This document shows positions 7,297-32,051 of a DNA stretch of 64,000 nt, piece after piece. The notes below the pieces were generated by a model. It did no database searches. It saw nothing but the letters and a program-made list of their open reading frames with translations, and was not told the DNA's origin. Position 1 is the first letter of the stretch; the number at the start of each line of letters is the position of its first letter. Position numbers and translations under genes: made by a program. The DNA is from an uncultured Mediterraneibacter sp. (GTDB taxonomy: Bacteria > Bacillota > Clostridia > Lachnospirales > Lachnospiraceae), in contig CALWFV010000001.1 in NCBI GenBank assembly GCA_944377745.1, positions 1-64,000 of the forward strand, written 5' to 3'.

Positions 7297-7300
7297 ATCA

Positions 7301-8895: not shown

Positions 8896-8897
8896 GT

Positions 8898-14359: not shown

Positions 14360-14430
14360 ATTCTTTCCTCCTGGTCTTCATCCGCGTTCACTGCTCCGCA
14401 GGCAGGACACGGACTTTATCTTACTGTCTA

Positions 14431-14490
14431 TTGTATCGGAAAGGCGTCAGATACTCCATGTACATTTTTTTTTACAATCCGACCTATTTT
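14431..14490 (-). promoter_or_regulatory. Operator and promoter of the GH3 operon (shared layout, copy 1)
   Basis: Reading the minus strand from 14490: AAAATAGGTCGGATT, 14 bp, ACATGG, 20 bp, then TACAAT as the -10. The same elements with identical spacings occur upstream of the transporter gene (19740-19841) and the second GH78 gene (31905-31994). No proper -35 hexamer sits 17 bp from the -10; ACATGG covers that region, as expected of an activator-dependent (AraC class II) promoter. The -10 lies about 70 bp from the start codon. Confidence 0.65.
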
Positions 14491-14549
14491 TATATTCAGA
14501 CCTCCGGCTTTTCTTTCTCCCTGAGAGGTATTCTCTCCTTTTCGTCTTG

Positions 14550-15399
14550 TTACGACCTCCAGTACTCCACAGCCTCGTCCAGCCAGCCTTCCGCCTCGCT
14601 GTCCTCGCCTAGTCCCAGACCGTGCAGTCCATGCTGTACGTTTTCAGCTTTGACGGAACGCCAAGCTTCTGGAGCCTCCGGTAGATCTCGTGTCCGTTTG
14701 CCTCGAAAGGCACCTGCTCGTCCTCCACAGTCTGCCAGATAAATGTTTTCGGGTAATCCCGGTCCAGGTGTTCAACGGGTGTAAATTGATCTTTCATTTC
14801 TTCCCGCTTTCCATCTTCAAACATGATATTCAGACAGTTCTCCATCTGTTCATCCTCCTGTGCAAACGCCACCAGTGGATAGCACAGCCCCAGCATCTGC
14901 GGCTTTGGAAGCCCGTATACTTTATAGCCTTCATTGTCTGTCCCCAGTTCAGACACAAGGTGTCCGCCCGCAGAAAATCCAAACGCCGCATACCTTTCCT
15001 CAACCTGAAACTTTTCTTTCTGATCCAGGATGAATTTCAAAGCCCGGCGCAGACCAGAGCAAAGGGCCCCTTCTTCCCAGCCGGGAACCACAAAAGCCCG
15101 GCGCGTTCCTTTGTCGGATCCGTCTTTCTCTCCTCAGTGGAATAGATTTCCTGTTTCATCGGTATTCCCGCGTCCAGATGCGACGCGATGGCTTGAAAAC
15201 CTTTTGCCATTGATCTGGGATTCCATGCAGGTGACACAGCGGATGCCAGCATCTTCAGGGTGATCTTTTTCATTTCCTCCGGAGCGGGACCAACCGTATC
15301 CTCCCGCCCCTCTACCGGCTGCTGCATGATAAACTTCTCCAGATCCGCCATTCCCGGATAAGATAAAATTTCTTCAAATGTAGATTCTTCTGTAAACAT
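14550..15399 (-). pseudogene. Alpha/beta hydrolase (esterase), two lesions
   Basis: The gene begins with AGGAGG and MFTEEST at 15399 and reads to FALVCAGL, where a stop at 15037 ends the frame. Reading resumes in another frame at GLRRALKFI and continues through the nucleophile elbow GFSAGGHL. About 55-65 residues expected between these parts, including the oxyanion loop, are missing, so the junction near 15045 looks like an internal deletion. A second lesion near 14636 shifts the frame to an early stop at 14609; moving one frame restores HGLHGLGLG, with the catalytic His, and a normal end at 14550. The protein cannot be active. It was probably another carbohydrate esterase of this operon. Confidence 0.85.
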
Positions 15400-15520
15400 T
15401 TTCTTCCTCCTACTACTTGTTCTTTCCCTGTCTGACTGGCCTTTGGCCGGACAGGAGCAATTCTTCAGGTACATTTATTTTTTATTATAGGCACTCTCCG
15501 CAAGCCCCACAACCGCAATC

Positions 15521-15549
15521 TTGAATTACGTTCTCTGTTTTGCTATACT
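15521..15549 (+). promoter_or_regulatory. Promoter of the AraC gene at 15621
   Basis: A -35 TTGAAT (15521-15526), a 17-bp spacer and a -10 TATACT (15544-15549) lie about 70 bp upstream of the start codon. Confidence 0.7.
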
Positions 15550-15620
15550 TGTTACAGTTTCCATACACATGACAGCAGCATGAACCTGCTGCAGAGTACT
15601 ACAGAAATCCGAGGTAAAAT

Positions 15621-16781
15621 ATGGCATATTACATAACATACGGAGAATTTCAGAGACATATGAAAGAGTACTATCTCAGGACCGGAAACCGGATGCAGTT
15701 TCCGGAAATGACGGATTATCTCTACCGGAAAGGGCTCCTCCTGGACTCGCCGCCCCACAAGCTTCCTGCCGCAGAAATGTTCGGGACGTTAGATAATGAA
15801 GAATTCAATAAAGTGATCGATGATATTGTCCTGACGGTAGATCCGGGGCTCAAGGCATCTTTCAGGGTTGGTGAAAATGCCATTATCCCCCATTCAAAAG
15901 ACGTCTTTGTGATCCGGCACCCCCGTTACACACGTCCTTCTCCCCATACCCACAACTATTTTGAGATCAATTATGTGGCGGAAGGGACCTGCACTCTTGT
16001 ATTTGAAAAAACAACCCGTCAGCTTGGAAAAGGTGAGATCTGCATCATCGCGCCCTCCTCAGAGCACGACCTGGTCATAGATGACGATTCCACAGTATTC
16101 TGCATCATGCTGAGGAAAAGCACTTTTGATATGACGTTTTTCTCTCTTCTGTCGAGAAAGGATCTCCTGTCCTATTTCTTCCGCACAACACTGCAGGACG
16201 ACGCCCACGCAAACTTCCTGCTGTTCTTTGCGGAGAATACGCAGTGGATCAATGAGATCGTCCACAATGCAATGGGGGAAAGCTACAAAAATGATCCATA
16301 CAGCAACTCCTGCTGTATCTCCTGGATCAACCTTTTCTTCTCCAATCTGCTGCGCAATTACAGCAAGACGCTCCAGTTCTACGATTACCAGATGGGGTCG
16401 GACTTCTCTCTTGTGCTCCAGTACATACAGCACAATTACCAGAACCTGACCCTTTCTTCCCTGGCAGAACTGTTCCACTACAGCGAACCGCACCTGTGTA
16501 CGCTGATCAAACAGAACACCGGGCATAATTTCACCGGTCTGGTGAAAAGGCTGCGCATGGCAGAGGCCGTTGACTACCTGTCCAACACGAACCTGAAGAT
16601 CAGCGAGATTGCAGAACGGGTCGGCTACAACTCCGCCGATCATTTCTCCCGGATATTCCGGAAGACATATAACATGTCCCCCCTGGAATACCGGAAAGAG
16701 CACAGTGATACGGAAGAGGCCTTCATTCCCTTTGCAACAAATGAGGAACTCGGGCCAGCTCCTGATTCTAAGCCGAACTAA
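15621..16781 (+). CDS. AraC-family transcriptional regulator
   Basis: This 386-residue regulator has an N-terminal cupin-like ligand-binding part (PHTHNYFEINYVAEG at about residues 110-124, with the barrel continuing to about 150) and a C-terminal pair of helix-turn-helix motifs (about 270-366, ending GYNSADHFSRIFRKTYNMSP). It should sense a sugar released by the locus and activate its genes. It is the only plus-strand gene among the minus-strand glycosidases and ends by a 4-base overlap with the convergent GH43 gene. It is a candidate, by position only, for the protein that binds the shared GTCGGATT/ACRTGG operators. Confidence 0.9.
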   Translation: MAYYITYGEFQRHMKEYYLRTGNRMQFPEMTDYLYRKGLLLDSPPHKLPAAEMFGTLDNEEFNKVIDDIVLTVDPGLKASFRVGENAIIPHSKDVFVIRHPRYTRPSPHTHNYFEINYVAEGTCTLVFEKTTRQLGKGEICIIAPSSEHDLVIDDDSTVFCIMLRKSTFDMTFFSLLSRKDLLSYFFRTTLQDDAHANFLLFFAENTQWINEIVHNAMGESYKNDPYSNSCCISWINLFFSNLLRNYSKTLQFYDYQMGSDFSLVLQYIQHNYQNLTLSSLAELFHYSEPHLCTLIKQNTGHNFTGLVKRLRMAEAVDYLSNTNLKISEIAERVGYNSADHFSRIFRKTYNMSPLEYRKEHSDTEEAFIPFATNEELGPAPDSKPN

Positions 16782-18268
16782 AACATGAACTCTGCAAAAT
16801 CAAGATTTCCTTCCTTCACACGGAAATACAGCGCATGGGCTCCTTCTTTTACGGAAATGTCCATGCGTTTTTCTGTCCATTCGGAACTGTCGCACTCCAC
16901 ACTTCCGACGGCACTTCCGTCCGGCGTGTCAATGACAAGCTGCAGGACGCCCCTGCCCCGCACAGTCACGCCAAGCTCTTTTTCCGTTCCTTTCAGTGCA
17001 AAATACTTAAATCCCGCCACAGCACCGTCTCTCATATTACGAATGAATGGATAGAGTCCTTTCTCTTCCCCTTCCTTCTCTTCCTCTGTGATGTAGGGCA
17101 TCTTCTCCGGAAGTTCAGGGACTTCTTCTCCGGGACCTCCCATAACAACCTGACCAACCTTCGAGCGGTCTCCTTCTGTCAGATGGCACGCGATATATGT
17201 CTTCCATTTTCCTTCCGTCGGAAGAGGTCCGTCATTCAGGCCGCAGCTTGTGATCTCGATCTGCGGGATCGTTCCATCAGAAAGGATCTCCACCTGATCC
17301 GCGCACCCCTGTCTTGAGAATGCTGTCCCGTGAGTATGGCGATGCCAGAAAATGTAATATTTGTCTTTGATCTGCACCAGACCGCCGTGATTATTTCCCG
17401 TATAGTTGACCGGGACCGTATTCCCTCTATATCCGAGATCCCCATTGGAAACGATCACTCCTTTGTACTCAAACGGTCCCTCCGGAGACTCTGCCATGCC
17501 GTAGCAGAGTTCATTTCCCTGAAGGCTGGAGTATACAAAATAATAATGTTTCCCAAAATGCCGTATGCTGGACGCCTCAAAGAACGGATGCGCCTCATAG
17601 CCCGTTCCTTTTGCCGTATCACAGCCGTTCGCCACACAAACCGGCTCCGTGATAATGGTATGCATATCGTCGGCAAGCTTCACCATCATCGCCCCCGGAA
17701 TGTCCAGTTCCTCCATGCCCGGGAAACGGACCGGAGGGCAGAATCCGTAATACAGATAGTTTCCGCTCTCTTCACAGAGGATTGCCGGGTCAAACCATCT
17801 TCCAATCCTCGGGATAGAGCCATCCTCTCTCGTGACAAAATCAAGAAATTCATATTTTCCCGCCGGCGTGTCACACACTGCCACAGAGATCACATTAACA
17901 AAATCCAGCGCGTAATAAAGATAGAAGCTTCCGTCCGGTCCCTGAGCCACATCCGGGGCATAGAGACAGTGAAGATGGTCCTCTGTTCCCAGCTCTCCCT
18001 CAAACTCCGGAAGTTCCTTATCATAAGGCGCCCCGTTCAGCGGATCCTGATCCTTCCTGTAGATAATGCCCTCATATCTCCAGTCGCCCGGATCATCTAC
18101 CGGAGCGCTCCAGCACACATAGTCCTCCTCACAGAAGGATGTTCCATTCCTTCTGTCATGGCTTCCGAAAATATACACTCTGTCTCCAAACACATGGGGT
18201 TCTCCATCCGGAACCGTCTCCCAGAACGGAAGGTACGGATTAACTGCTGTTTTCTTCATTTTCTTCAC
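16778..18268 (-). CDS. Glycoside hydrolase family 43 with C-terminal carbohydrate-binding-like domain
   Basis: This 496-residue enzyme is a five-bladed beta-propeller glycosidase of GH43, a family of arabinofuranosidases and xylosidases. An Asp in VPDGEPHVFGDRVYIFGSHD is the likely base, the modulating Asp lies in LYAPDVAQGPDG and the acid Glu in HPFFEASSIRHF. The C-terminal 100 residues (TVRGRGVLQLVID to FAEFMF) look like a CBM6-type jelly roll. No signal peptide is seen. It is closely related to the GH43 protein at 22131-23630, sharing segments such as ITSCGLNDGPL and SRQGCA. It lies 87 bp downstream of the transporter with a hairpin between them. Confidence 0.9.
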   Translation of the reverse strand: MKKMKKTAVNPYLPFWETVPDGEPHVFGDRVYIFGSHDRRNGTSFCEEDYVCWSAPVDDPGDWRYEGIIYRKDQDPLNGAPYDKELPEFEGELGTEDHLHCLYAPDVAQGPDGSFYLYYALDFVNVISVAVCDTPAGKYEFLDFVTREDGSIPRIGRWFDPAILCEESGNYLYYGFCPPVRFPGMEELDIPGAMMVKLADDMHTIITEPVCVANGCDTAKGTGYEAHPFFEASSIRHFGKHYYFVYSSLQGNELCYGMAESPEGPFEYKGVIVSNGDLGYRGNTVPVNYTGNNHGGLVQIKDKYYIFWHRHTHGTAFSRQGCADQVEILSDGTIPQIEITSCGLNDGPLPTEGKWKTYIACHLTEGDRSKVGQVVMGGPGEEVPELPEKMPYITEEEKEGEEKGLYPFIRNMRDGAVAGFKYFALKGTEKELGVTVRGRGVLQLVIDTPDGSAVGSVECDSSEWTEKRMDISVKEGAHALYFRVKEGNLDFAEFMF

Positions 18269-18281
18269 CTCATATATACGA

Positions 18282-18314
18282 AAGGCTCCCGGTCTTATAC
18301 CTGCCGGAAGCCTT
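18282..18314 (-). terminator. Intercistronic hairpin between the GH43 gene and the transporter gene
   Basis: AAGGCTCCCGG (18282-18292) pairs with CCGGAAGCCTT (18304-18314) with one mismatch on each side. It sits in the gap between the GH43 start and the transporter stop. On the minus strand it follows the transporter and is trailed by only TTT, so it may be a weak terminator or an mRNA-stabilising hairpin that sets the expression ratio of the two genes. Confidence 0.5.
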
Positions 18315-18355
18315 CCTTTAGAATCACTGTTTAATTATCATCAGGAGTAATAAAG

Positions 18356-19741
18356 CTACTCATTTGCCTCCATTTTTGCCTTCATCTCTTCAATATCCTT
18401 GTAGTATTTTGCTACCGGGTTGATGAGAACTGCGATGATCAGGATGATTCCTGTCACACAGGGAGCTCCGAATTTCAGGAAGTTCAGAGCGAACATTGCG
18501 GAATCCGGCTGTTCGCCGATTGCGTTTGCAACATATCCGGATACAGCAAGGACTGCCAGAATACCTGAGCTTGTAAATGTGTTACCACATTTCTGAGCAA
18601 ATCCTTTGATGGAAGCGATCACTCCGTTTGCGGAGATACCTTCCTTAAGCTGTACATAATCGATCGCATCGTTTACAAGTACATTGACCAGTGCGTTCTG
18701 CATTGATGACAAGCAGGATGAAATAAATGTCATAACACACAGGAACATGAAATTTGATCTTCCAAAGAAAAACAGGATCAGGTAGCAAACAATCGATGTT
18801 GCCTGAGAGAAGATCAGAGATTTCTGTCCCGTTTTGAAGATCTTCAGCACGATCGGCATCAGCACGACCATGGAAACCGTTGCGCCGATGGAAATAACCA
18901 GCATATATACAGGAATCAGATCCGGTCTCTCATAATAATAAGTCATATAGTATACGGATGTTGAAAACATCAGTCCATATCCCATGGAAGCCATGATCCA
19001 TGCGATGATGTTCGGGAACAGTTCCACATGCTTCAGAACTTTTTTCAGGTTTTTCAAACTTTCACCCTTCTGAACCGGCTGGAGATATCTCTCTTTTGAT
19101 GTTGCAAACAGTCCCCAGAAGGAAATAAATGAAAGGATACCACAGCAGATCATCAGCGGAATATATCCGTTGCTGAAACCAAGGTTGTTAAAGAAACCTG
19201 TCAGGTTCGGTGTAAAAGTATTACCAATCAGGAAAGCCACTGCACAAACGCCTGCGCCCATTGTGATGATCATATTTCTTCTCTCATTGCTCTTTACGCA
19301 TGCAGGAAGAACTGCTACCTGGGGCATCGTATACATTGTAACTGTCATTCCGTATCCGATGTATGTAACCAGTACCCAGACGAATTTACCTGTTGTTGAG
19401 AAGTCCGGATTTACCCAGATCAGTACGGAAAACAGTGTCAGCAGGATCGGTGCTGCAATAAAGTAAGGTCTGTAACGTCCCCATCTGGATTTCGTACGGT
19501 CTGCAATGACTCCCATCATCGGGTCATTACATGCATCCCAGAATGTTGCGATGAACATGATCAGGGAAGCTGATGCAGCCGGCAGGCCCATTGTATCTGT
19601 CATGTAGACCGAGAAATAACTTGAGATCACCGCCGCGATGATCATCGCTCCTCCGTTGACAGATGTCGCATGGAACCACTTAAAGGCTGTGCTTACATGT
19701 TCTTCTGAGCTCTTTGTGCTCACTGTCTTTTCATTTGCCAT
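18356..19741 (-). CDS. GPH-family sugar:cation symporter (MFS)
   Basis: This 461-residue transporter has about 12 membrane helices and the glycoside-pentoside-hexuronide (MelB/YicJ) signature DACNDPMMGVIADRTKSRWG at about residues 68-87, followed by RYRP. It would import glycosides or oligosaccharides with Na+ or H+. It is the only sugar transporter in the locus; no ABC permease or solute-binding protein is present. With signal-less glycosidases around it, it is the likely entry point for the substrate. Its upstream region carries the shared operator-promoter plus a tandem array of 15-bp repeats, the densest regulatory region of the window. Confidence 0.92.
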   Translation of the reverse strand: MANEKTVSTKSSEEHVSTAFKWFHATSVNGGAMIIAAVISSYFSVYMTDTMGLPAASASLIMFIATFWDACNDPMMGVIADRTKSRWGRYRPYFIAAPILLTLFSVLIWVNPDFSTTGKFVWVLVTYIGYGMTVTMYTMPQVAVLPACVKSNERRNMIITMGAGVCAVAFLIGNTFTPNLTGFFNNLGFSNGYIPLMICCGILSFISFWGLFATSKERYLQPVQKGESLKNLKKVLKHVELFPNIIAWIMASMGYGLMFSTSVYYMTYYYERPDLIPVYMLVISIGATVSMVVLMPIVLKIFKTGQKSLIFSQATSIVCYLILFFFGRSNFMFLCVMTFISSCLSSMQNALVNVLVNDAIDYVQLKEGISANGVIASIKGFAQKCGNTFTSSGILAVLAVSGYVANAIGEQPDSAMFALNFLKFGAPCVTGIILIIAVLINPVAKYYKDIEEMKAKMEANE

Positions 19742-19779
19742 TTTTTCTCTCTCCTTTACTCGTTCTTTGAACTGTATAT

Positions 19780-19840
19780 AGTGTACTTTAGAAAAGGCAA
19801 GAGTTCCATGTCATTTATTTTCTGAAATCCGACCTATTTT
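19780..19840 (-). promoter_or_regulatory. Operator and promoter of the sugar transporter (shared layout, copy 2)
   Basis: Reading the minus strand from 19840: AAAATAGGTCGGATT, 14 bp, ACATGG, 20 bp, then TACACT as the -10. The distance from the GGATT end to the -10 is exactly 40 bp, as in the other two copies at 14431 and 31935. Confidence 0.65.
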
Positions 19841-19894
19841 AAGACGACATATTTTCATCCGATTTATTTTCAGGCAGAAACGACATATTTTCAT
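19829..19894 (-). repeat. Tandem 15-bp repeat array (probable operator array)
   Basis: On the plus strand, units of the form nCGAYMTATTTTnnn start at 19829, 19844, 19859 and, after a 6-base break, 19880. The second and fourth units are identical over ACGACATATTTTCAT. Two further CCGACATT units lie at 19940 and 19954. The first unit is part of the shared operator, so the array probably gives extra binding sites for the same regulator. Confidence 0.6.
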
Positions 19895-20004
19895 TTTCGC
19901 TTGTTGATCCGTCAAATATTTTTCATCTGATTCCGATATCCGACATTTTTTCTCCGACATTCTTCAACGTTCGTCATGGTGTTCTGTCTCTCTGTTCATC
20001 CTCC

Positions 20005-20286
20005 CTATTCAAGGATTTCCCTCACCTGCTCGACCGTGATATCACACTGCCTGGCGATTTCACTCTCGGAGACGCCGCTTCCGGAAAGACGGAAAACCTG
20101 CTTTGCAAGCTCTAATCCCGCCGCTCTCCCTCTTTCGTCAGCCTCTTTCAATTCTTCCGCAAAAAGTTCATTTAACGCATCGCACATCTTCTTTTCCTCC
20201 TCCATCTGTTTCCAGTTTGCCCTTGTGATCAGGTCCATAACAGCCTCATAATCCTTCCGCTTCCTGTTCTGTTCATATCTCATCAT
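20005..20286 (-). CDS. Hypothetical protein, C-terminal fragment of a PD-(D/E)XK/Rpn-type protein
   Basis: This 93-residue product is charged and helical, with EERGRAAGLELAKQVF-like composition and a C-terminal segment (VSESEIARQCDITVEQVREIL) that resembles a helix-turn-helix. Similar tails end the Rpn-type recombination nuclease or transposase proteins common in Lachnospiraceae. The nuclease domain is absent, so this is probably the leftover end of such a gene rather than a functional one. The only ribosome-binding candidate is a weak GGAGAGATAAGAGA. It lies between the transporter's regulatory region and the DUF5060 glycosidase gene. Family placement is tentative. Confidence 0.45.
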   Translation of the reverse strand: MMRYEQNRKRKDYEAVMDLITRANWKQMEEEKKMCDALNELFAEELKEADERGRAAGLELAKQVFRLSGSGVSESEIARQCDITVEQVREILE

Positions 20287-20463
20287 CAGTTCTCTTATCT
20301 CTCCGCCTGCCTTGAGGTGGATTCAGAATAGCACAGATATCCATTTTAAACAAGAATCTGCTATTCCAATTTTTACGCGTAAGGAGAAAACCGGACAGCG
20401 CGTTGCTCTGCACTGCCCAGTATATAACATATCGCGATTTTCTATAATATTCTTTTCCCGCTG

Positions 20464-21984
20464 TCAGTCATCAGCCACAGCCAGAACCGCCATCTTCTCT
20501 TTCCCCGGCATATCAAACCACACCGTACCGGAAGCCCCGCTCATGAGAACAGATCTCTTCTGCTCCCTTGTGTCGATCAGCTCGATCCTGTATATATGGT
20601 CTTTTGGAAGGAACATGCAGGATCTCGCCGGCTGCTGTATGCCGTAATATTTGATAAACGCTTTTTCTTCAAAGTGTCCGCAGTATGCGCTGTCTTTCAG
20701 ATCCAGCGCATCTTTCTCCGCGTCTGTCAGGCTTGCGCGGAGTTTGAAAAACGGATTCTCCATCAGATCCGCCGGAGCCTCACCGTCCTGGAGCTCCGGT
20801 TCATACAAGGTCCATACCGGCTCATCCCAGGGCTCCAGCGCGCCCGGCAGTCTTTCCATCACCTCACGGAGGAACGCGATCCCTTCCGGGCTTTTCCCTT
20901 TGAGTTTTCCGCCTTTCGCCCACCAAAGCACATCATCGTTTGACAGGTAAGTCTCTCCATGAGTCGCAAAAGCCCCGTCGCAATATGCGCACCAGAACCG
21001 GTGTACCATTTCTTCCGCGGAAATATTTCCCCAGGAGAGATGGATATTCCCCTCATAGCAGCACTCATCATAGATCAGCGGCTTCTTATATTCTCTGATC
21101 CACTGAGGCGCTTTGTAGAACAGGATGTTCTGCATACTCAGGTGAGTGATGTTCTCTCTGCTGTTGTCATAAGATTTCATGCAGTAGTGATTGCTTAGCA
21201 GATGACCATACGGGTCTTCCTCTTTGATGACCTCCTCGAATCTTGCCCAGTCCTCTTTTGTCTTCGCAAAGCACAGGTCATATTCGTTTGCCATGCTCCA
21301 CCACACAGAGGGGAATGCGGAAAGTCTTCTGACCGCATATCGGAGATAGATCTCATTCTCCTCCGCACTCATAACAGCAAAGCCCCATCTGTCATAGGGA
21401 TGGAACAGGATCAGATCCGATTCAATGCCCATATCCGCAAGCTCCAGGATCGCTTTTTCCAGTCTCTCCCAGAATCTGTAATTCGGACGGTTCACATCCC
21501 AGTTCCCCTCGGCATCCTTTTCAAATGCATAGCATGGTGGTTCATTCTGGTTAAAATCATAAGATTTCGGGAAGACACAGTGGCGAACCTTGTTGAACGG
21601 AGCCTTCTTCAACGACTCCATTGTCTCCCTGACGAGTGCGTCTTCCTGATGGATCAACGCGTAGATCGTCGTTCCAAACGGGATATAACGTGTTCCGTCT
21701 TCATAGACGAAATGTGTTTTCTCCGTGCGGACCAGACCGTGCTTTTCTCCCGGGACGCATTCTTTGGATCCCTCCGCTGCAACAGCGCCGCTCACTTTCC
21801 AGGAATATGTCCCGCATTTTTCCGGGAGGAAACGCACTTTATAGACTCCGTTTCCGTCATAAAATCCTTTTACTTCCTTCTCCTGTCCGTCACAGGTGAA
21901 AACGGCATTCACCTCCGCAAGTGCTTCTGATCCTTCCGGCGGCTGTCCATTCAGCGCCAGTTCAAATACTTCATACTGCTTCAT
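20464..21984 (-). CDS. DUF5060/DUF4038-type glycoside hydrolase
   Basis: This 506-residue protein starts with a beta-sandwich of DUF5060 type (about residues 1-90, FELALNGQPPEG to GTYSWKVSG). A TIM-barrel glycosidase domain of the DUF4038/GH140-like group follows (about 110-400), and a C-terminal beta domain of DUF5605 type ends the protein. Candidate catalytic Glu residues are in WWSMANEYD (acid/base position after an Asn, as in clan GH-A) and LIYDECCYEG. The start at 21984 follows AAAGGA; an upstream ATG at 22089 would give an unsupported 35-residue extension. Related enzymes act on pectic rhamnogalacturonan or apiose-containing chains, but the substrate here is inferred. Confidence 0.8.
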   Translation of the reverse strand: MKQYEVFELALNGQPPEGSEALAEVNAVFTCDGQEKEVKGFYDGNGVYKVRFLPEKCGTYSWKVSGAVAAEGSKECVPGEKHGLVRTEKTHFVYEDGTRYIPFGTTIYALIHQEDALVRETMESLKKAPFNKVRHCVFPKSYDFNQNEPPCYAFEKDAEGNWDVNRPNYRFWERLEKAILELADMGIESDLILFHPYDRWGFAVMSAEENEIYLRYAVRRLSAFPSVWWSMANEYDLCFAKTKEDWARFEEVIKEEDPYGHLLSNHYCMKSYDNSRENITHLSMQNILFYKAPQWIREYKKPLIYDECCYEGNIHLSWGNISAEEMVHRFWCAYCDGAFATHGETYLSNDDVLWWAKGGKLKGKSPEGIAFLREVMERLPGALEPWDEPVWTLYEPELQDGEAPADLMENPFFKLRASLTDAEKDALDLKDSAYCGHFEEKAFIKYYGIQQPARSCMFLPKDHIYRIELIDTREQKRSVLMSGASGTVWFDMPGKEKMAVLAVADD

Positions 21985-22097
21985 CAGATTTCTGTCCTTT
22001 CCTGATAATTTCTCGGCCTTTTCTGCTATATTCCACGAAAAAGGACCGGTCTCTCTTATTATCATAGCAACAGGGAAACTTAATTTCACGTCATAGA

Positions 22098-22116
22098 TTA
22101 AGTATATTTTACTTAA
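22098..22116. promoter_or_regulatory. Small inverted repeat upstream of the DUF5060 glycosidase
   Basis: TTAAGTA (22098-22104) and TACTTAA (22110-22116) form a dyad with a 5-base centre in an AT-rich stretch between the GH43 stop and the glycosidase start. It could be an operator or part of a promoter. Confidence 0.35.
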
Positions 22117-22130
22117 TTATCAACTGAACT

Positions 22131-23630: not shown

Positions 23631-23688
23631 ATATCTCCTTTCAAACTTGCGTTTCCGCCATTCTCCTGTTCTATACTGAGATCCTCAT

Positions 23689-25848
23689 TTACAGTGTACA
23701 CTCCGCCATCATCGTATCCCTGGAGTTCCCTCCCACATAAAACCGGAACAGCCCCGGTTCCACAACATAGTTCATCTCCCGGTCATAATATCCCAGCTTC
23801 TCAAAGGGGATCTCGAACACGACTTCTTTTTCCTCGCCGGGTTGCAGGCTCACTTTCGCAAAGTCTTTCAGTTCTTTTACAGGGCGCACTCTCTTTGCTA
23901 CCACATCCTGTGCATAGCACTGGACGATTTCCTCTCCTGCTCTGTCTCCTGTGTTTTTCACCTTTGCAGAAACCCGGAACGCTTCTTCTGTTTTCTCTGC
24001 CGCCACATCACTGTACTCATAGGTCGTATAACTCAGGCCATATCCGAATGGGTAGACCGGCTCAAGAGGCGTATCCAGGTATTTGGAAGTAAACTTCGAT
24101 TTTCCGCCGGGACGCCCTGTATTGATGTGAGCGTAATACATCGGACACTGCCCTGTGGTGTATGGGAAGGTGGTTGTCAGTTTCCCGCTGGGGTTGACCT
24201 CTCCATAGAGGATGTCGAGAAGCGCGTTCCCCGCTTCCACTCCCGGATGCCATGCCTCCAGGATGGCGGATGCGGTTTCATTAAGCTGCGGGATTGCAAG
24301 AGGACGCCCGTTAAACAGGACTGCAATTACCGGTTTTCCAAAAGTATGGAGACCTTTCAGAAGTTCCTCATCCTCCGGTTTCAACGTGATGGAAGCCCGG
24401 CTTGCCGCCTCGCCGCTCTCGTCCTTTCTCTCACCGATGACTGCGATCAGGACGTCGCTCTCGATTGCCATCTTCAGGACATTTTTTCCGTCTTTGCTGT
24501 ATGTATAAGGGATTCCTCTTGCATCGCAGGCGTCCGTCAGGCTGATACAGTCGTCTCCGTTGGCGCCGATGGCCCATGCCCCGGTCATCTCGCCCCGATC
24601 CGACGCAAGCGCTCCTATGATCCCGATCTTTTTCTCTTTCGCAAGGGGCAGGACGCCGTCATTTTTCAGAAGGACCATGGATTTCTGCGCGGCTTCTCTT
24701 GCAAGGGCTCGGTATTCCGGCCTGCCCATGGTCTGTGACTCTCTCTGGCTGTCTGTCCTGTAGGGATCGTCAAACAGCCCCAGTTCAAATTTTACCCGGA
24801 GGATGTTTGCGACCGCCTCGTCCAGCACATCCATAGGGACTTCTCCGGACTCCACCAGTTCTTTCATGTTCTCGATATAAGAATTGGAGGACATATCCAT
24901 GTCCATGCCTGCAAGGATCGCCTGTTTTGCGGCGTCCCTTTTGTCCTCCGCGATCCCGTGGTTCACACACTCTGCGATGGCGTTGGAATCGCTGACCGTC
25001 ATTCCGTCAAATCCCCAGTCCTCGCGGAGGATATCCCGGAGCAGTTTTCGGCTCACCGAACAGGGGACTCCGTTGATGTCGTTGAAGGCAGGCATCACCG
25101 CACGGGCTCCTGCGTCAATGCAGGCTTTATATGCCGGAAGATACTCTTCGTACAGTCTCTGCTCCGACATATCCACCCGGTTATAGTCTCTTCCTGCTTC
25201 TCCCGCTCCGTATGCAGCGAAATGTTTCACACAGGCAGCCATGGAATCATTCCTTGACAGATCCTCTCCCTGGAATCCTCTTACCTTGGCCGCACCGTAA
25301 AGGCCGTTTAATAGCACGTCCTCGCCGGCTCCCTCGCTGACTCTTCCCCAGCGCGCGTCCTTTGCCGCGTCCACCATGGGAGCAAATGTCATATGTACGC
25401 CTGCTGCCGTCGCCTCATCCGCTGCCATCCGTCCGGTCCGCTCCCACAGTTCCGGTTCCCATGCGCAGCTCTCCGCAAGAGGAATCGGCGTCACGGTCTT
25501 AAACCCGTGGATCACGTCATATCCGAAGAGAAGCGGGATTCCCAGCCTGGTCTCTTCCACCGCTATTTTCTGCAGACGGTTGACTGTCTCCGCGTCTCCA
25601 ACGCCGTTGTAGGAACCGATCCTTCCAGCGCGGAGATCCTCCTCGTGGAAATCCTGCTCCGCGGTACCCATAAGGCGTCCGAACTCCTCCTGGCTGATCC
25701 GTCCGTCAAACATCATGTTCAGCAGTTCCTCAAAGCTGACGTCAAAGGCGCCCACAAGTGAGGGACCGCACTGCTGGAGCTGTCCCACTTTCTCCTCCAG
25801 TGTCATTTTCCCCAGCAGTTCCTTTATCCTTCCTTCGTAATCTTTCAT
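23689..25848 (-). CDS. Beta-glucosidase-type glycoside hydrolase family 3
   Basis: This 719-residue three-domain GH3 enzyme resembles BglX. The N-terminal TIM barrel carries KHFAAYGAGEAGRDYN at about residue 210 and the nucleophile Asp in MTVSDSNA at about 284. The alpha/beta sandwich follows, and a fibronectin-III-like C-terminus begins around 600 (FRVSAKVKNTGDRAGEEIVQ). The start at 25848 has AAGGAGG upstream; the longer in-frame start is unsupported. No signal peptide is present, unlike periplasmic BglX. It would remove terminal beta-linked glucose, xylose or galactose. It lies 80 bp downstream of the GH2 gene in one run of same-strand genes. Confidence 0.92.
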   Translation of the reverse strand: MKDYEGRIKELLGKMTLEEKVGQLQQCGPSLVGAFDVSFEELLNMMFDGRISQEEFGRLMGTAEQDFHEEDLRAGRIGSYNGVGDAETVNRLQKIAVEETRLGIPLLFGYDVIHGFKTVTPIPLAESCAWEPELWERTGRMAADEATAAGVHMTFAPMVDAAKDARWGRVSEGAGEDVLLNGLYGAAKVRGFQGEDLSRNDSMAACVKHFAAYGAGEAGRDYNRVDMSEQRLYEEYLPAYKACIDAGARAVMPAFNDINGVPCSVSRKLLRDILREDWGFDGMTVSDSNAIAECVNHGIAEDKRDAAKQAILAGMDMDMSSNSYIENMKELVESGEVPMDVLDEAVANILRVKFELGLFDDPYRTDSQRESQTMGRPEYRALAREAAQKSMVLLKNDGVLPLAKEKKIGIIGALASDRGEMTGAWAIGANGDDCISLTDACDARGIPYTYSKDGKNVLKMAIESDVLIAVIGERKDESGEAASRASITLKPEDEELLKGLHTFGKPVIAVLFNGRPLAIPQLNETASAILEAWHPGVEAGNALLDILYGEVNPSGKLTTTFPYTTGQCPMYYAHINTGRPGGKSKFTSKYLDTPLEPVYPFGYGLSYTTYEYSDVAAEKTEEAFRVSAKVKNTGDRAGEEIVQCYAQDVVAKRVRPVKELKDFAKVSLQPGEEKEVVFEIPFEKLGYYDREMNYVVEPGLFRFYVGGNSRDTMMAECTL

Positions 25849-25928
25849 GCTCTTCCTCCTTCTGTTTCCAAAAAGGCCCGGAGAAACACTGCACAAAGCA
25901 GCTTTCCCGGACCTTTCCCGGATCTGTT

Positions 25929-28358
25929 TTAATAATTTACCGTCGTGCTTCTTCCGTCTTCCGCTTTAACCGTTACGGTTCCGTGGCAGTCCTCCTCCGT
26001 CTTTCTGAGGATGAGCAGGGCCCGTCCGTTGAATGTCTCTGTCACACCTTCGTTGAAGTTATAGACCGGCTTCGGGTTACCGCTTCCGAATCCTGCTGCC
26101 ACTGCGTCCCCGGTAACTTCTGCCGTCAATTTCACATCGCTGTCAGTCAGGACCCGTCCCTCTTTGTCTTTCAGGGCTATGTCTATATAAACCAGTTCCT
26201 TTCCTTCCGTATCCTCTGTCTGCGCCCACAGCTCTGCGTCTGCATCCGCGCTCTGGAGTTCCATCCGTCCGATCTCCTGTCCGCTTTCGTAGGCCACTGC
26301 GACCACGTTTCCGGGCTCGTACACTGTCTCAAACAGCGTGCGGTATCCCGCCTGGACTCCCGACGGCTTTCTGCCCTGGGACACACCGTTTACAAACAGT
26401 TCCACCTCATCACCGGGAGCGTAGATCTCCACAACCACCGGTTTTCCTTCACAGCCTTTCCAGTTCCAGGTAGACACACTGTCGCTGAGCACCCATGGTG
26501 TCTTGATCAGGTTCTGTCCATAGTGATTGGGATCCTGGACTGTGATATAAGGATCCTTTCTCAGGCCGAACACCACTTCTCTGAAATAGGAGGCAGGTCT
26601 GCGGAAACCGGTGATGTCAATGTCTCCGCTGTATGCCAGCTGGCAGGGGAATCCTGCGCCGAAGCCGCCTTCGCCCCACTGATATGCAGGCACGCCCACT
26701 CCGGCTTCGCCGATATAGTCCCATCCGGTCCAGGTGAAATCTCCGATCACATGAGCCAGTTTTTTCACCAGTTCCCAGTTTCTCGCGATCTCCGGCGGAT
26801 ACGTCTCGCTGCCTACGATCACACGGTTCGGATACTTCTCCCCGTCCATTTCATATCTCGCCGTCATATAATTGTAACCGGCAATGTCAACAGAAGCACA
26901 CGCCTTCTCCAGACGCTCGGAGATGGCGTCATGGACAACGATCTCATCCATATGGTCGTCCATCAGTGTCATGAAGTCATTGACATTTCCGTCCAGTTCG
27001 CCCTTCTCCACAAGGTCTGCGGAGACGTCCGCGACGATCTGATCCACTTTGTCCCCCGCCGCGAATACGCCGTTGATAGAAGCAAGGGTAAAGCGGGTGT
27101 CATCCAGGCTCCGGATCTTTTCACAGATATCATGGCATGTCTTCGCGCCGTGGTCCGTGCCGATCTCGGGGATCTCATTTCCAACAGAATAGAGTACGAC
27201 AGAAGGATGGTTATAATCCTTTCTCACCATGGCCGTGACGTCCTTCTCCCACCACTCCTGGAAATACAGACCGTAATCCAGGTCGGATTTACACCGGTTC
27301 CACATATCAAAGGTCTCGTCCATCACATACATTCCGATCTCATCGCAGGCGCGCAGCATCGCAGGGGCCATCGGATGATGGGACATGCGGATGGCATTGA
27401 ATCCCGCCTCTTTTAGTTTTCTCACCTGGCGGTACTGGGCTTCCTCAAATGTCGCCGCCCCCAGCAGCCCGCTGTCGTGATGGATGCAGGCTCCGCGAAG
27501 TTTCACGGACTCTCCGTTCACGCGGAGTCCCCGCTTCGCGTCGAGAGCGAGAGTGCGGATCCCGAACTTCTCTGTCTGGGAATCTGCCTCTTCCCCGTCC
27601 ACATACAGGACCGTCTCACAGGTATAAAGGACCGGGTTCTCCGCAGACCAGAGTTTCGGATCTCCAACCGCGATCCGCTGGGTCAGCGTTCTCTCTTCCT
27701 GATCAAAAAGGACTGCCGAACTCTCCTCTTCCGCTACAACCTGTCCGTTTCCGTCTTTGATGATATTTTTCAGCCTCATCGCTGTTGCGCCGTGCTCCCG
27801 GTTCTTTATCTCTGTGTTGACCTTAAGGACGGCGTAATCCGGATCCGCGGACTCGCATCGGATCTGAACTCCCTCCGGCACCAGGTAGGACATTCCCGAT
27901 TCCAGCAGATAAACGTCCCGGTAGATACCGGTTCCGGAGTACCAGCGGCTGTTCGTCATGTTATTGTTCCTGACCTGGACACGGATTTCATTATCCGCCC
28001 CGTAGCGCAGGAAATCATCCAGCTTCACGAAAAATGTGGTGTAGCCGAACATATTCTTTGCCGCGAGCTGCTCATTGACATAGACCTGGGCATTCATATA
28101 CACACCCTCAAACTCCAGCAGCATTGTCTTTCCTTTTGCCTCTTCTGGCACATACAGGTTTTTCACATAGGTGTAAACTCCACCGTTGCGGAAACCCGTG
28201 TTCCCCTTGTTGGGGCTTTCCGGATCCGCTTTTTCCTCGATCATTGCATCGTGGGGAAGGTTGATCTCCCGCGCGTTCTCCGGTACATTCCACACCAGGG
28301 CAAAGGAATCCTTATCTGCCCAGAATTTCCATCCTTCATTCCATTTCTGTCTCTTCAT
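25929..28358 (-). CDS. Beta-galactosidase-type glycoside hydrolase family 2
   Basis: This 809-residue GH2 enzyme has the sugar-binding jelly roll first (RKGNTGFRNGG-like region, residues 1-170), an immunoglobulin-like domain, and a TIM barrel with the acid/base Glu in YSVGNEIPE at about 393 and the nucleophile Glu in VIVGSETYPPE at about 515. A long C-terminal part of Ig-like domains follows. The R(M/I)SHHP motif that opens the barrel is present. No signal peptide is seen. It would cleave terminal beta-galactosides, or beta-glucuronides or mannosides in related enzymes, from imported oligosaccharides. A gap of 147 bp without recognisable signals separates it from the downstream end of the GH43 gene at 28506. 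Confidence 0.92.
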   Translation of the reverse strand: MKRQKWNEGWKFWADKDSFALVWNVPENAREINLPHDAMIEEKADPESPNKGNTGFRNGGVYTYVKNLYVPEEAKGKTMLLEFEGVYMNAQVYVNEQLAAKNMFGYTTFFVKLDDFLRYGADNEIRVQVRNNNMTNSRWYSGTGIYRDVYLLESGMSYLVPEGVQIRCESADPDYAVLKVNTEIKNREHGATAMRLKNIIKDGNGQVVAEEESSAVLFDQEERTLTQRIAVGDPKLWSAENPVLYTCETVLYVDGEEADSQTEKFGIRTLALDAKRGLRVNGESVKLRGACIHHDSGLLGAATFEEAQYRQVRKLKEAGFNAIRMSHHPMAPAMLRACDEIGMYVMDETFDMWNRCKSDLDYGLYFQEWWEKDVTAMVRKDYNHPSVVLYSVGNEIPEIGTDHGAKTCHDICEKIRSLDDTRFTLASINGVFAAGDKVDQIVADVSADLVEKGELDGNVNDFMTLMDDHMDEIVVHDAISERLEKACASVDIAGYNYMTARYEMDGEKYPNRVIVGSETYPPEIARNWELVKKLAHVIGDFTWTGWDYIGEAGVGVPAYQWGEGGFGAGFPCQLAYSGDIDITGFRRPASYFREVVFGLRKDPYITVQDPNHYGQNLIKTPWVLSDSVSTWNWKGCEGKPVVVEIYAPGDEVELFVNGVSQGRKPSGVQAGYRTLFETVYEPGNVVAVAYESGQEIGRMELQSADADAELWAQTEDTEGKELVYIDIALKDKEGRVLTDSDVKLTAEVTGDAVAAGFGSGNPKPVYNFNEGVTETFNGRALLILRKTEEDCHGTVTVKAEDGRSTTVNY

Positions 28359-28505
28359 TTTTTCTCTTCCTTTCTATCTTTCCCGGATCATCTTTCCGTT
28401 TTTTTCTTCATCATAATCCCGGCTGCCGCACTGCTCCTCCGGTGTCGGCGCTGCCGATTCAGTACTGCTGGATCAGCGTTCCTGGTTCAGAGTTGCCGTT
28501 CAGCG

Positions 28506-29384
28506 CTACCGGATCAGCGAGACTTTGCCGTCCCTGACACAAAGCTCTGTGATCACCGGGCGTTCTCTATATTTGTCATTAGGGTAATGGAGCAGGAATT
28601 TCAGCTTCCCGTCCAGATCCCGGAACACCATGCCGTGTCCCCCGTTTTCCGGAAAGACCGGCTCCTCCTGCTGGATCCAGGGTCCTTTCACGGAACCGCT
28701 CTCTGACCTTGCCGCGCCCACCGCGTATCCGGCGGTTCCCCAGCTCGACCAGAGCAGATACAGTCCGTCCCCTTCCCGGAATACACAGGGGCCGTCCGTA
28801 AAGTAAACGTCTCCGTCGATTCCGAACTCTGCTTTCGCAAAGGGTACCGGATGAGCCCATGGCGCCTCTTTCGCCGAGAAGAGCAGTTCCGGCTCTCCCG
28901 CCGCTTCCTTCAGATCCTCCGACAGTTTCAGGATACACATATCTCCGTCCTTTGAGTCTTCGATGGAATGGGAGAAGATCAGGTAAGGCGTTCCTTTCTC
29001 CCAATATAACGTTCCGTCAATGGACGACCATTCTTCCGGGGTCAGTCTCCCGCTGTACGGTTCAAAAGGTCCCTCCGGCCTGTCGGACTTCAGCACATAG
29101 ATGCCTTTCTTTCCTTCTGAAGACCCGAATGTAGTTACCAGATAAAAATCACCATCGATCTGATAACATTCCGGCGCCCAGTAATTCTGGTCCGCAAAGA
29201 ATCCCTCCGGACGGCGGAAGATCTCAATGGGGCCTTCCCATTCTTTTCCGTCCCTGCTCCGGTAGCAGTCGAATCCGTCCGCTTTTCCCCAGCAGGTCTC
29301 GCTCCGGGTACCGTACAGATAATAAGTCCCATCCACGATCAGCAGATAAGGATCCCTTATATTTACTTCATCTGTTCTCATCAT
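28506..29384 (-). CDS. Glycoside hydrolase family 43, small single-domain type
   Basis: This 292-residue enzyme is a bare GH43 propeller without accessory domain. The base Asp is in NIRDPYLL near residue 11 and the second Asp in SSIDGTLYW near 140. At the usual EGP acid position the sequence reads TDGPCVF, so Asp replaces Glu; this variant occurs in some annotated GH43 subgroups, so activity cannot be judged from it alone. Two ATGs in tandem follow AGGAGG. The gene starts 9 bp after the GH78 stop, so it is co-transcribed with GH78 from the promoter at 31935-31994. It probably acts on arabinosyl or galactosyl residues exposed by the rhamnosidase. Confidence 0.85.
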   Translation of the reverse strand: MMRTDEVNIRDPYLLIVDGTYYLYGTRSETCWGKADGFDCYRSRDGKEWEGPIEIFRRPEGFFADQNYWAPECYQIDGDFYLVTTFGSSEGKKGIYVLKSDRPEGPFEPYSGRLTPEEWSSIDGTLYWEKGTPYLIFSHSIEDSKDGDMCILKLSEDLKEAAGEPELLFSAKEAPWAHPVPFAKAEFGIDGDVYFTDGPCVFREGDGLYLLWSSWGTAGYAVGAARSESGSVKGPWIQQEEPVFPENGGHGMVFRDLDGKLKFLLHYPNDKYRERPVITELCVRDGKVSLIR

Positions 29385-29393
29385 CCGTCCTCC

Positions 29394-31904
29394 TCACTCT
29401 GCATTTCTCTCATAAGTATAAGTGCCTGCCGTCACATTGACCGGCTCTTCTCCCGGAAGAATGAGCTGAGCCGACGCCCCGAAAGGCACTTTGATCTCAT
29501 AGTATATCTTTCCGTCCCGGTATTTCCAGCTGCTCTCGTAAGTGCCGGACGCTGTGTTGATCCTCCCTCTCATATATCCAAGCCGCTGGTCCGGGTGAGG
29601 AGCGATGACCGCCTCCCGGAATCCGAACATCCCGGCGCGGATCCCGCACACATCCGCGAACATCCATGCCTCGATGCTCCCGTATGTATAATGGTTCAGG
29701 CTGTTCATCCCCTCCGGGTTGATGGTCCCGTCCGGGAGCACGGAGTTCCATCTCTCCCAGATCGTAGTCGCCCCCAGGTTGACACTGTAGAGCCATCCCG
29801 GATAGTCTTCATTTAAGAGCAGATCCACCGCCGTCCTATGGTGCCCGCTCTTTGTCAGCGCCTGACAGAGGATCGGCGTCCCTACGAATCCTGTGTTCAG
29901 ATGTCCCTCGTTTTCCCGGATCCGCTGTTCCAGGACGTCTCCCTCCTCTTTGATGTTCTCACTCAGTCCGAACTGGATGGCCAGAGCAGAACCGGTCTGT
30001 GTCGGGCAGACGCATAAACCCTTCTCATCAAAGTATTTCTCACGGATGGCACTGAGGATCTCTCCGGCGAGGGTCCTGTACTCTTCTGCTTCCCCGTAGC
30101 CCAGCGCTTCCGCAGACTGTGCCACAATGTCTGCGCACCGGTAATAGTAGGCGCTGGCAATATACAGCGGATCTGTTGCGCCGAAGGGAGCCGGATCGTC
30201 GTGATCCAGTGCCAGCCAGTCAGCGAAATGGAAACCGCCCTTGATCAGATGAGGTCCGCCCTGCGCCTCCTCCTGCTTTCTCTGGTAGTCCACCCAGTCT
30301 TTCATCCCGGAGTAGGTCTCCGCAAGCAGCGTCTTATTCCCATAGTGGAGATAGGTGTTCCAGGGTATGATCACCCCGGCATCCGCCCATGGGCAGGATC
30401 CGTATTCGGACACCATTCCCTCTTTGATCCGGGGTACCACGTTGGGAACCGCACCGTCCAGGATGCTCTGCTCCGCTCTCACATCCCACAGATATTTCCG
30501 ATAGAATGCAGGCATATACAGACTGTAGCAGGCTGTCTCAGAAATAGCCTGGGCGTCTCCAGTCCATCCCAGTCTCTCATCCCTCTGCGGACAGTCCGTG
30601 GGGACATCCAGCAGGTTATCCTTCATCCCCCAGAGCGCATTGGAGAAAAGCTGGTCCACTTTCCTGTTCCCGGTCTCGATCCAGCCGATCTGATCAAAAT
30701 CGCTGCGGAGGTGATATGCCGTAAACATCTCCCCTGTGACCTCACAGGGACAGTCCACCTTCATGTACCGGAATCCATAAAACGTAAAGTGAGGGCGCAC
30801 ATGCGCCTTTTTTCCATTGGAAATATAGGTAAACTCGGTCTTTGCAGTCCTCAGGTTGTCGTGGTAGAACTCGCCCTGCTGAAGGATCTCGCCTGCAGTT
30901 AGTGTGATCTGCGTCCCCTCCGGGAAATCACAGTCAAATTCCACCCATCCGGTCAGGTTCTGTCCGAAATCCAGCACTGTATCTCCCTTTGGCGTATGGA
31001 TCATATCTTTTACGGCAAAGGAATCTTTCTTACGGATTGGCAGGCTGAGCCGGTCGCAGATCTTCCCGCAGCGCTCCGGCGCTTTCAGAATGACTCCGCC
31101 CTCTGCATCCATGTTCTCTCTTCTGGCGTCATACTTCTCTCCGTCGTAGATATTATTGAAAATAACAGGAGAAGGACAGGTTTCCCAGGTGTCATCGGTA
31201 CAAACAACGCACTCCCTTTTCTCCTCTGTTTTCACATACATCTCCGCGATGGCATAGAGGCGGTCGCCGTAAAGGTTCGTGTATCCTCCGTCGAATCCCA
31301 GTCTTCCCTTGAACCAGCCCTCTCCCAGAAAGATGCTGATCTCATTTTCTCCCTGATGAAGAAGATCCGTCACATCATAAGTCTGTGTCTGAAGATGGAA
31401 ATCATAGGAGTGATATCCCGGAGCCAGGAACTCGTCTCCCGCCTTCTTTCCGTTGATATAGCATTCATATACTCCAAGCCCGCACATATAAAGTCTTGCC
31501 TCTCCGGGCTTTTCCACTGTAAATCTCTTTCTCAGGATCGCGGAGGACGTCTCATTTTCCGGGGAGATCCACTGTCCCAGCCACTCCTCGTCCATCTTTC
31601 CGGTCTCAAAGCGGCTCGTCTCCTCCGCTTTCTCTCCGTTGTCCGCCTCAACAGTGACTTTCCATTCATACTGAGCTGCCGGCTTCAGTTTCACCTCTAC
31701 CGGAACACGGAAATCCAGACTGTCCGCCTGGGTATCCTCTCCACTGTCATAGATGCATTTTTTATTCTCAAAGATCTCTATCCTTGCCCACTTCTGCCTT
31801 TTCGCATCCCCTGCTTCCCCGACAGTCCAGGACAGACTTAAAGGGGTGACCTGAAAGCCCAGAGGCTCGACAAGATTATTGACACGCATATTTGTTATCT
31901 TCAT
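29394..31904 (-). CDS. Alpha-L-rhamnosidase, GH78, second copy
   Basis: This 836-residue GH78 protein has the same domain order as the first copy but is about 90 residues shorter at the C-terminus. The signature DCPQRDERLGWTGDAQ is at about residue 433-448 and GATTIWERWNS at about 715. The two proteins are clearly diverged outside these motifs, which suggests different linkage preferences rather than simple duplication. There is no signal peptide. It heads a unit with the small GH43 gene and carries the third copy of the shared operator-promoter upstream. Start site: GGAGG precedes the ATG. Confidence 0.93.
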   Translation of the reverse strand: MKITNMRVNNLVEPLGFQVTPLSLSWTVGEAGDAKRQKWARIEIFENKKCIYDSGEDTQADSLDFRVPVEVKLKPAAQYEWKVTVEADNGEKAEETSRFETGKMDEEWLGQWISPENETSSAILRKRFTVEKPGEARLYMCGLGVYECYINGKKAGDEFLAPGYHSYDFHLQTQTYDVTDLLHQGENEISIFLGEGWFKGRLGFDGGYTNLYGDRLYAIAEMYVKTEEKRECVVCTDDTWETCPSPVIFNNIYDGEKYDARRENMDAEGGVILKAPERCGKICDRLSLPIRKKDSFAVKDMIHTPKGDTVLDFGQNLTGWVEFDCDFPEGTQITLTAGEILQQGEFYHDNLRTAKTEFTYISNGKKAHVRPHFTFYGFRYMKVDCPCEVTGEMFTAYHLRSDFDQIGWIETGNRKVDQLFSNALWGMKDNLLDVPTDCPQRDERLGWTGDAQAISETACYSLYMPAFYRKYLWDVRAEQSILDGAVPNVVPRIKEGMVSEYGSCPWADAGVIIPWNTYLHYGNKTLLAETYSGMKDWVDYQRKQEEAQGGPHLIKGGFHFADWLALDHDDPAPFGATDPLYIASAYYYRCADIVAQSAEALGYGEAEEYRTLAGEILSAIREKYFDEKGLCVCPTQTGSALAIQFGLSENIKEEGDVLEQRIRENEGHLNTGFVGTPILCQALTKSGHHRTAVDLLLNEDYPGWLYSVNLGATTIWERWNSVLPDGTINPEGMNSLNHYTYGSIEAWMFADVCGIRAGMFGFREAVIAPHPDQRLGYMRGRINTASGTYESSWKYRDGKIYYEIKVPFGASAQLILPGEEPVNVTAGTYTYERNAE

Positions 31905-31934
31905 GATATCCTCCTTCTTCTGTCTCTGGATACT

Positions 31935-31994
31935 ATTTTAAAAAAATATCCCGTAGAAGACCACGTGTTTTTTTCTCAGAAATCCGACATTTTC
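31935..31994 (-). promoter_or_regulatory. Operator and promoter of the second GH78 gene (shared layout, copy 3)
   Basis: Reading the minus strand from 31994: GAAAATGTCGGATT, 14 bp, ACGTGG, 20 bp, then TAAAAT as the -10. Spacings are identical to copies 1 and 2. The second box differs only by G for A in its third position. Confidence 0.65.
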
Positions 31995-32051
31995 TAACCC
32001 GTGTGTCCCCTCCGGGATACTCTTTTTATTTTCTTTTCCGTCTCCGCCCGG

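Follow-up and report, generated by a model that had tools for sequence, protein, structure and literature searches.

The glycan locus and its shared promoter element

The 64,000-nucleotide stretch analysed here, termed the window, stems from an uncultured Mediterraneibacter sp. (family Lachnospiraceae) and carries a glycan locus in which three minus-strand promoters share one composite element. This element, which comprises two sequence boxes and a -10 hexamer at fixed distances, is considered below as the putative operator of AraC1, an AraC-type protein encoded in the middle of the locus. GH78, GH3, GH43 and GH2 enzymes, a GPH symporter and an AraC regulator are found in the one locus, which thus corresponds to a Gram-positive polysaccharide utilization locus (gpPUL) as defined in the relevant passages of PMC5320581, i.e., a degrading enzyme, a transport system and a regulator encoded together. 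The features are as follows (coordinates in the window):

14430..14492, minus strand: putative operator site 1 with its -10, exact match; precedes the GH3 (12671) operon
19780..19842, minus strand: putative operator site 2 with its -10, exact match; precedes the GPH symporter (18356) and GH43 (16778) genes
31935..31997, minus strand: putative operator site 3 with its -10, boxes and -10 exact, two mismatches to the extended pattern; precedes the GH78 (29394) operon
15621..16781, plus strand: AraC1, proposed activator, 386 aa, with cupin (AraC_binding) and AraC-type helix-turn-helix (HTH) domains (Pfam); lies between operons 1 and 2
12671..14359, minus strand: GH3, first gene after site 1 (Pfam)
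9860..12643, minus strand: GH78 alpha-L-rhamnosidase (Pfam)
6334..9755, minus strand: tail of operon 1, with an esterase, two metallo-beta-lactamase-fold hydrolases and a beta-phosphoglucomutase-like HAD protein (Pfam, NCBIfam)
18356..19741, minus strand: GPH cation symporter, first gene after site 2 (TIGR00792, 232.6 bits, cut-off 231.35; MFS_2)
16778..18268, minus strand: GH43, second gene after site 2 (Pfam)
29394..31904, minus strand: GH78 alpha-L-rhamnosidase, first gene after site 3 (Pfam)
20464..29384, minus strand: rest of operon 3, with GH43 (28506), GH2 (25929), GH3 (23689), GH43 (22131) and an apiosidase-like protein (20464) (Pfam)

The element reads GTCGGATT-N14-ACRTGG-N20-TANNNT and extends, from box 1 to the end of the -10, over positions 14430-14483, 19780-19833 and 31935-31988 of the minus strand. 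All three sites have identical gaps (14 bp between box 1 and box 2, 20 bp between box 2 and the -10, 40 bp from GGATT to the -10), and their -10 sequences are TACAAT, TACACT and TAAAAT. At up to two mismatches the window contains three full patterns, all of them exact, compared to 0.02 expected from shuffled sequences. Box 1 followed by TANNNT at 40 bp and box 2 followed by TANNNT at 20 bp are likewise found three times each, and only at these places. The organism's own genome (3,665,754 bases) contains just three exact matches to the boxes without the -10, each of them within the locus, and no exact match to a reversed control pattern. An additional 24 inexact box pairs in this genome (two with one mismatch, 22 with two) compare to 14 for the reversed control at up to two mismatches, and are treated as background by this comparison rather than site by site. 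With the A-rich flank and the -10 added to the boxes, a search at up to three mismatches returns the same three sites and no others. The spacers of the three sites differ, agreeing at 6-9 of 14 positions in the N14 and at 4-6 of 20 positions in the N20 segment, and therefore, the sites are not recent copies of one promoter.

The original prediction had proposed one code for the three promoters, with GGATT exactly 40 bp from the -10, and both points were borne out, the coordinates agreeing within a few bases. Its motif was correct in the boxes and their spacing and incomplete in two respects, since a conserved TNAAAAWA before box 1 and the half-sites upstream of the symporter had been missed.

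The genes downstream of each site presumably form operons, as judged from orientation and spacing. Operon 1 runs in the order GH3, GH78, metallo-beta-lactamase fold, beta-phosphoglucomutase-like HAD, metallo-beta-lactamase fold and esterase, and homologues of all four tail genes follow GH78 in three other genomes (G419, G403, G148; G and L numbers denote compared genomes and loci, respectively). Between 6334 and 31904, 14 of the 15 minus-strand frames of at least 150 aa with a Pfam match follow a site, all except a short esterase frame at 14609-15091, which spans 160 aa versus 360 aa (G419) and 331 aa (G410) in its homologues. Since the same homologue is also matched by another minus-strand frame, at 15037, the esterase gene looks interrupted in the window.

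Conservation of the element and its promoter geometry

An alignment of 11 AraC1 sequences was used to scan the genomes of 84,980 species, one per species, which yielded 76 loci with a total of 1,226,863 bases. The taxa represented include Mediterraneibacter glycyrrhizinilyticus, Faecalicatena faecalis and F. orotica, Anaerobium acetethylicum, Lachnotalea glycerini, Butyrivibrio and Pseudobutyrivibrio. In these loci, 22 exact box pairs have a gap of 14 bp, and none has any other gap from 4 to 40 bp. Box pairs with at most one mismatch number 45, and in 42 of them TANNNT follows at a distance of exactly 20 bp; the next commonest distance, 25 bp, accounts for 12. At up to two mismatches, the full pattern is present at 69 sites in 47 of the 76 loci, and 63 of these sites lie outside frames of more than 150 aa. 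Control patterns with a box gap of 13, 15, 12 or 16 bp (-10 at 20 bp) give 1, 0, 1 and 1 matches, respectively, and those with gaps of 11/17 or 17/23 bp give none.

At 60 of the 69 sites, the closest gene within 600 bp downstream has a homologue in the window, most commonly the GPH symporter (24), followed by GH78 (9860; 12), GH3 (12671; 11), GH2 (5), GH78 (29394; 3), GH3 (23689; 2), GH43 (28506; 2) and the esterase (1), with three unmatched genes and six sites without a gene in reach. The same site precedes the GH3 orthologue in G419, G403 and G410, as well as in M. glycyrrhizinilyticus (L115), F. faecalis (L116) and A. acetethylicum (L170). One locus (L161) belongs to a metagenome-assembled genome labelled Treponema sp. 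and contains an AraC1 relative (55% identity) together with a site before a GPH symporter, reflecting either transfer or a misbinned contig.

A second search covered 397 genomes of the family, which were screened for exact boxes and with the AraC1 protein. The counts from this search and from the 76 loci overlap and are not independent (G110 C81 = L170, G148 = L116, G322 = L115, G419 = L113, G403 = L114, G291 = L128, G231 = L124). Exact boxes were found 23 times in 15 genomes. In 13 cases, from six genomes, TANNNT follows at exactly 20 bp, and two of these 13 fall within an open frame (113 or 128 codons). The other ten, from nine genomes, have no -10 at this position and are all located inside open frames of at least 100 codons. 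Strong AraC1 matches (E up to 1e-90, 47-100% identity) were obtained in 12 of the 397 genomes, and these 12 include all six genomes that harbour boxes plus -10 (hypergeometric p = 1.8e-10, ignoring kinship). Among 58 genomes of the genus, G000, G403, G410 and G419 alone have an exact full pattern, and the same four are also the ones that encode AraC1 at an identity of at least 95%, with the gene truncated by a contig end in G410. If up to two mismatches are allowed, 31 of the 58 genomes show 46 matches (10 exact, three with one mismatch, 33 with two) versus eight for the reversed control. Several of the 36 inexact matches are visibly one repeated sequence, and the one in G419 C141, which is described below, was examined.

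A consensus was derived from 50 non-redundant sites (excluding L185 and L186) and reads T.AAAAWATGTCGGATT, an A-rich stretch, ACATGG over the -35 position and TAaaAT. Conservation extends to columns outside the search pattern, with A at -7 and -4 in all 50 sites and at -5 and -2 in 49. A proper -35 hexamer was predicted to be missing, and indeed, TTGACA is found at 16-18 bp from the -10 in none of the 50 sites. Matches of 5/6, 4/6 and 3/6 occur in 2, 10 and 32 sites compared to 0.9, 5.6 and 17.5 expected from shuffled sequences, the excess of 3/6 matches probably being due to the TGG of box 2 itself. The overlap of box 2 with the -35 position, the fixed distance to the -10 and the scarcity of -35 hexamers of 5/6 or better (2 of 50 sites) are features of sigma-70 class II activator-dependent promoters, and the element thus has the appearance of a site for such an activator.

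Further half-sites accompany the element upstream of the symporter:

19825..19954, minus strand: box-1-like half-site array, comprising the main half-site (19825) and additional half-sites (19840, 19855, 19876 and 19936); spacing of 21 bp between 19876 and 19855

The half-sites of this array reach matrix scores of 16.3-26.1, compared to 23.0 and 24.9 for the other two operators and at most 15.1 for the rest of the 64 kb. Around 94 full sites from the window and 80 loci (a count that includes some records twice, L103 and L153), 15 extra half-sites are found on the same strand and none on the opposite strand, versus about 0.7 expected from background; the 15 are located at eight promoters. Half-sites at -51 and -30, i.e., 21 bp apart, are shared by the symporter promoters of the window, L114, L115 (M. 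glycyrrhizinilyticus), L116 (F. faecalis) and L117 (F. orotica), with scores of 11 to 20 and differing intervening sequences. In G265 the upstream half-sites are at -50 and -29. For rhamnose regulators of the AraC family in Bacillales, Bacteroides and Enterococcus, direct repeats with a 21-bp periodicity are also described in the part of PMC3870299 consulted.

AraC1 and the probable control of the locus

AraC1 is an AraC/XylS family protein by its DNA-binding domain (PF12833 at residues 281-359, 78.3 bits, cut-off 33.6; PF00165, 63.7 bits, cut-off 26.6) and contains an N-terminal cupin (PF02311, 45.3 bits versus 21.1). The corresponding Pfam E-values are 5e-22 (HTH_18), 1e-17 (HTH_AraC) and 9e-12 (AraC_binding). 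A cupin effector domain at the N-terminus is common, though not universal, in this family. The cupin residues H109, H111, E115 and H149 are invariant in 11 AraC1 sequences. The segments YSEPHLCTLIKQN and GYNSADHFSRIFRK, which correspond to the recognition helices of the family, are nearly identical in the same alignment (the window protein and ten others at 47-78% identity).

AraC1 orthologues adjoin the operator in other genera. The second AraC-type gene of the window, at 35006, has no orthologue (at least 45% identity, best hits) in any of the 76 loci, and no AraC-type gene other than AraC1 was matched in the G322 stretch (= L115, M. glycyrrhizinilyticus), which carries two exact sites. Owing to its conserved helices, the missing 35006 orthologues and the situation in G322, AraC1 is by far the best candidate regulator. 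In one relative (L103 8448-9569, G373) the AraC1-like gene is split into two frames, and a site with an altered box 2 and a 562-aa GH3 orthologue remain alongside.

Most probably, the three sites are operators of one regulon that are bound by AraC1, which would activate the whole cluster in a class II manner. Each operator would then be a tandem of two half-sites, a distal one, TNAAAAWATGTCGGATT, and a proximal one composed of the A-rich stretch and ACATGG, the last three bases of which would occupy the position of the -35 hexamer in a promoter with a good -10 and no usable -35. An incoming sugar might bind to the cupin domain, upon which an AraC1 dimer would occupy the operator and hold RNA polymerase at the -10, such that uptake and all glycosidases are switched on together. 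At the symporter, the second tandem pair 51 bp (about five helical turns) upstream could add binding. The inducer may be a product of the locus itself, such as rhamnose-, xylose/arabinose- or apiose-containing oligosaccharides. The activator geometry at the -35 and the choice of the 15621 AraC gene had both been put forward in the original prediction. Both gain support from the rigid spacing across genera, the co-occurrence of operators and AraC1 orthologues and the missing 35006 orthologue.

Several observations weigh against this model. The p-value for the 397 genomes disregards kinship, and co-occurrence within one cluster would also be seen were the site bound by a different protein encoded there. 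No site at up to two mismatches is found in 29 of the 76 AraC1 loci, some of which are cut by contig ends. The proportion of loci with a site is 5/5 at AraC identities of at least 75%, 12/19 at 65-75%, 12/14 at 60-65%, 16/29 at 50-60%, 0/6 at 40-50% and 2/3 below 40%, and hence none of the six loci in the 40-50% range has one. A -10 shifted by one base still gives 8 (19 bp) and 18 (21 bp) matches at up to two mismatches, which presumably are carried by the boxes and by A-rich -10s. Within the main operator the A-rich stretches are 21 bp apart, yet an offset of 21 (score 6.7) does not stand out, as 24 (7.3) and 19 (6.6) perform about equally. Finally, the upstream pair is found in only 5 of 23 symporter promoters and is therefore confined to one group of relatives.

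Two alternatives have a similarly small probability. Repression by AraC1, which would bind the same operators and block the -35 region, is suggested by the proximal box overlapping the -35 position, where repressors also sit. However, a repressor requires neither a missing -35 nor an exact distance of 20 bp to the -10, as seen at 42 of 45 sites, and forward-oriented sites of class II MarA-type activators overlap the -35 as well (PMC12052159, in the part consulted). It is just as improbable that a different regulator, for example the AraC protein at 35006 or an AraC paralogue encoded outside the locus, binds the operators. The genome encodes six more AraC1-like proteins (E up to 1e-30) besides the second AraC-type gene in the window, and a locus in G231 (L081) also contains a MerR-type gene, but the distribution of 35006 orthologues and the single AraC-type gene matched in G322 speak against such a regulator, as does the finding that the genomes with exact sites plus -10 are genomes with AraC1. 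Chance or a recent local duplication without function, which might come to mind as all three sites lie within one 18-kb stretch, is the least credible explanation and is taken to be already refuted by conservation: the spacers vary while boxes and distances stay fixed, the sites exceed expectation as given above, and the same architecture is found in other genera before several different genes.

Distant relatives and known systems

The operator might moreover be modular, although we regard this extension as rather doubtful. Box 1 (GTCGGATT, 40 bp before the -10) would be read by the HTH2 helix GYNS(A/T)DHF(S/T)R and be common to a wider AraC clan, and box 2 and HTH1 would vary and set the target of each regulator. 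Three AraC proteins with 31-35% identity to AraC1 (G419 C141 in L060, Sedimentibacter L185, Trichococcus L186) carry this helix, and beside each of them GTCGGATT is found exactly 40 bp before a -10, with ATGTGG, ACATTA and ACATTA, respectively, as box 2. As L185 and L186 are nearly the same, these are two independent cases. The helix is absent from six other paralogues and from the 35006 protein, and its co-occurrence with box 1 in distant relatives suggests that HTH2 reads box 1. The 3.8-kb loci of the six helix-lacking paralogues themselves contain no site with up to four mismatches, and 20-kb stretches around two of them (L109, L111) contain one four-mismatch match each. Altogether, 30 loci of AraC1 paralogues searched at up to four mismatches hold one good site (L060, one mismatch) and one weak match (three to four mismatches) each in L063, L064, L109, L111 and L112.

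Two points count against a modular operator. First, AraC1 relatives in G144 and G379 (49-53% identity) keep the helix or nearly so, and no site is found in the stretches read. Second, box 1 plus -10 is not widely used by itself: without box 2, it occurs 19 times in 16 of the 397 genomes, compared to four matches of the reversed control. Eight of the 19 are in AraC1 loci, and of the remaining 11, ten are located within open frames of at least 100 codons, three of them being one homologous sequence; the sole match outside both AraC1 loci and such frames is L215 (G154). No AraC1-like protein is encoded in the 1.5-kb flanks of the 11 matches outside AraC1 loci. This distribution therefore indicates no broad use beyond AraC1 in the 397-genome sample.

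In L060 (2649-2702) the divergent promoter of a 361-aa AraC paralogue reads GTCGGATT-N14-ATGTGG-N20-TAAAAT, one mismatch away from the operator, and the frame downstream of this site has no Pfam match. L185 and L186 (both 9884-9937, minus strand) share GTCGGATT-N14-ACATTA-N20-TACAAT before a GH43 gene, lack the A-rich flank and encode AraC relatives of about 34% identity.

The regulators RhaS, RhaR and AraC of Escherichia coli combine a cupin ligand domain with two HTH motifs, and RhaS and AraC bind tandem half-sites next to the -35. AraC1 resembles them in its cupin and HTH domains, and RhaS is its best NCBIfam match, yet the score of 76.9 bits falls far short of the equivalog cut-off of 288. 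The presumed targets of AraC1 are glycosidase and GPH symporter genes, not those of rhamnose catabolism. MarA acts as a monomer on one marbox and has no ligand domain, whereas AraC1 possesses a cupin domain and its site has two boxes. MarA/SoxS class II promoters are alike in that a forward site overlaps the -35 (PMC12052159, same part). The rhamnose regulators of Bacillales, Bacteroides and Enterococcus have tandem half-sites with a 21-bp periodicity, comparable to the upstream pair at the symporter, as far as the consulted part of PMC3870299 goes; no word beginning with "lachnospir" occurs in the main text of that paper. The gpPULs of Roseburia and E. rectale likewise unite degrading enzyme, transporter and regulator, with GPH symporters and AraC regulators listed, but no operators are given in the relevant passages (PMC5320581).

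Many AraC-type regulators are encoded beside glycan loci in Lachnospiraceae, and to our knowledge, the operator is known for few of them. No description of the operator or regulator reported here was found in the literature, subscription papers and RegPrecise being outside the scope. On the best reading, the operator and regulon thus appear to be new, and AraC-family class II control of a gpPUL-type locus is itself a familiar architecture. For this system, regulator, operator, promoter geometry and target genes can all be stated from sequence, and with the conserved operator, the regulon can be traced across many related genomes. Should the inducer be identified, the operator could also be used as an inducible promoter for such gut bacteria.

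Based on the rhamnosidase and apiosidase-like genes, platycoside-type saponins or rhamnogalacturonan side chains were considered as substrates. This guess was dropped, the apiosidase homologue being present in one other locus (G403) among the stretches compared. Directly upstream of operon 3, positions 32052-33866 encode an AAA-ATPase_like/PDDEXK_9 protein, a homologue of which (24% identity) is found in locus L080 of G291.

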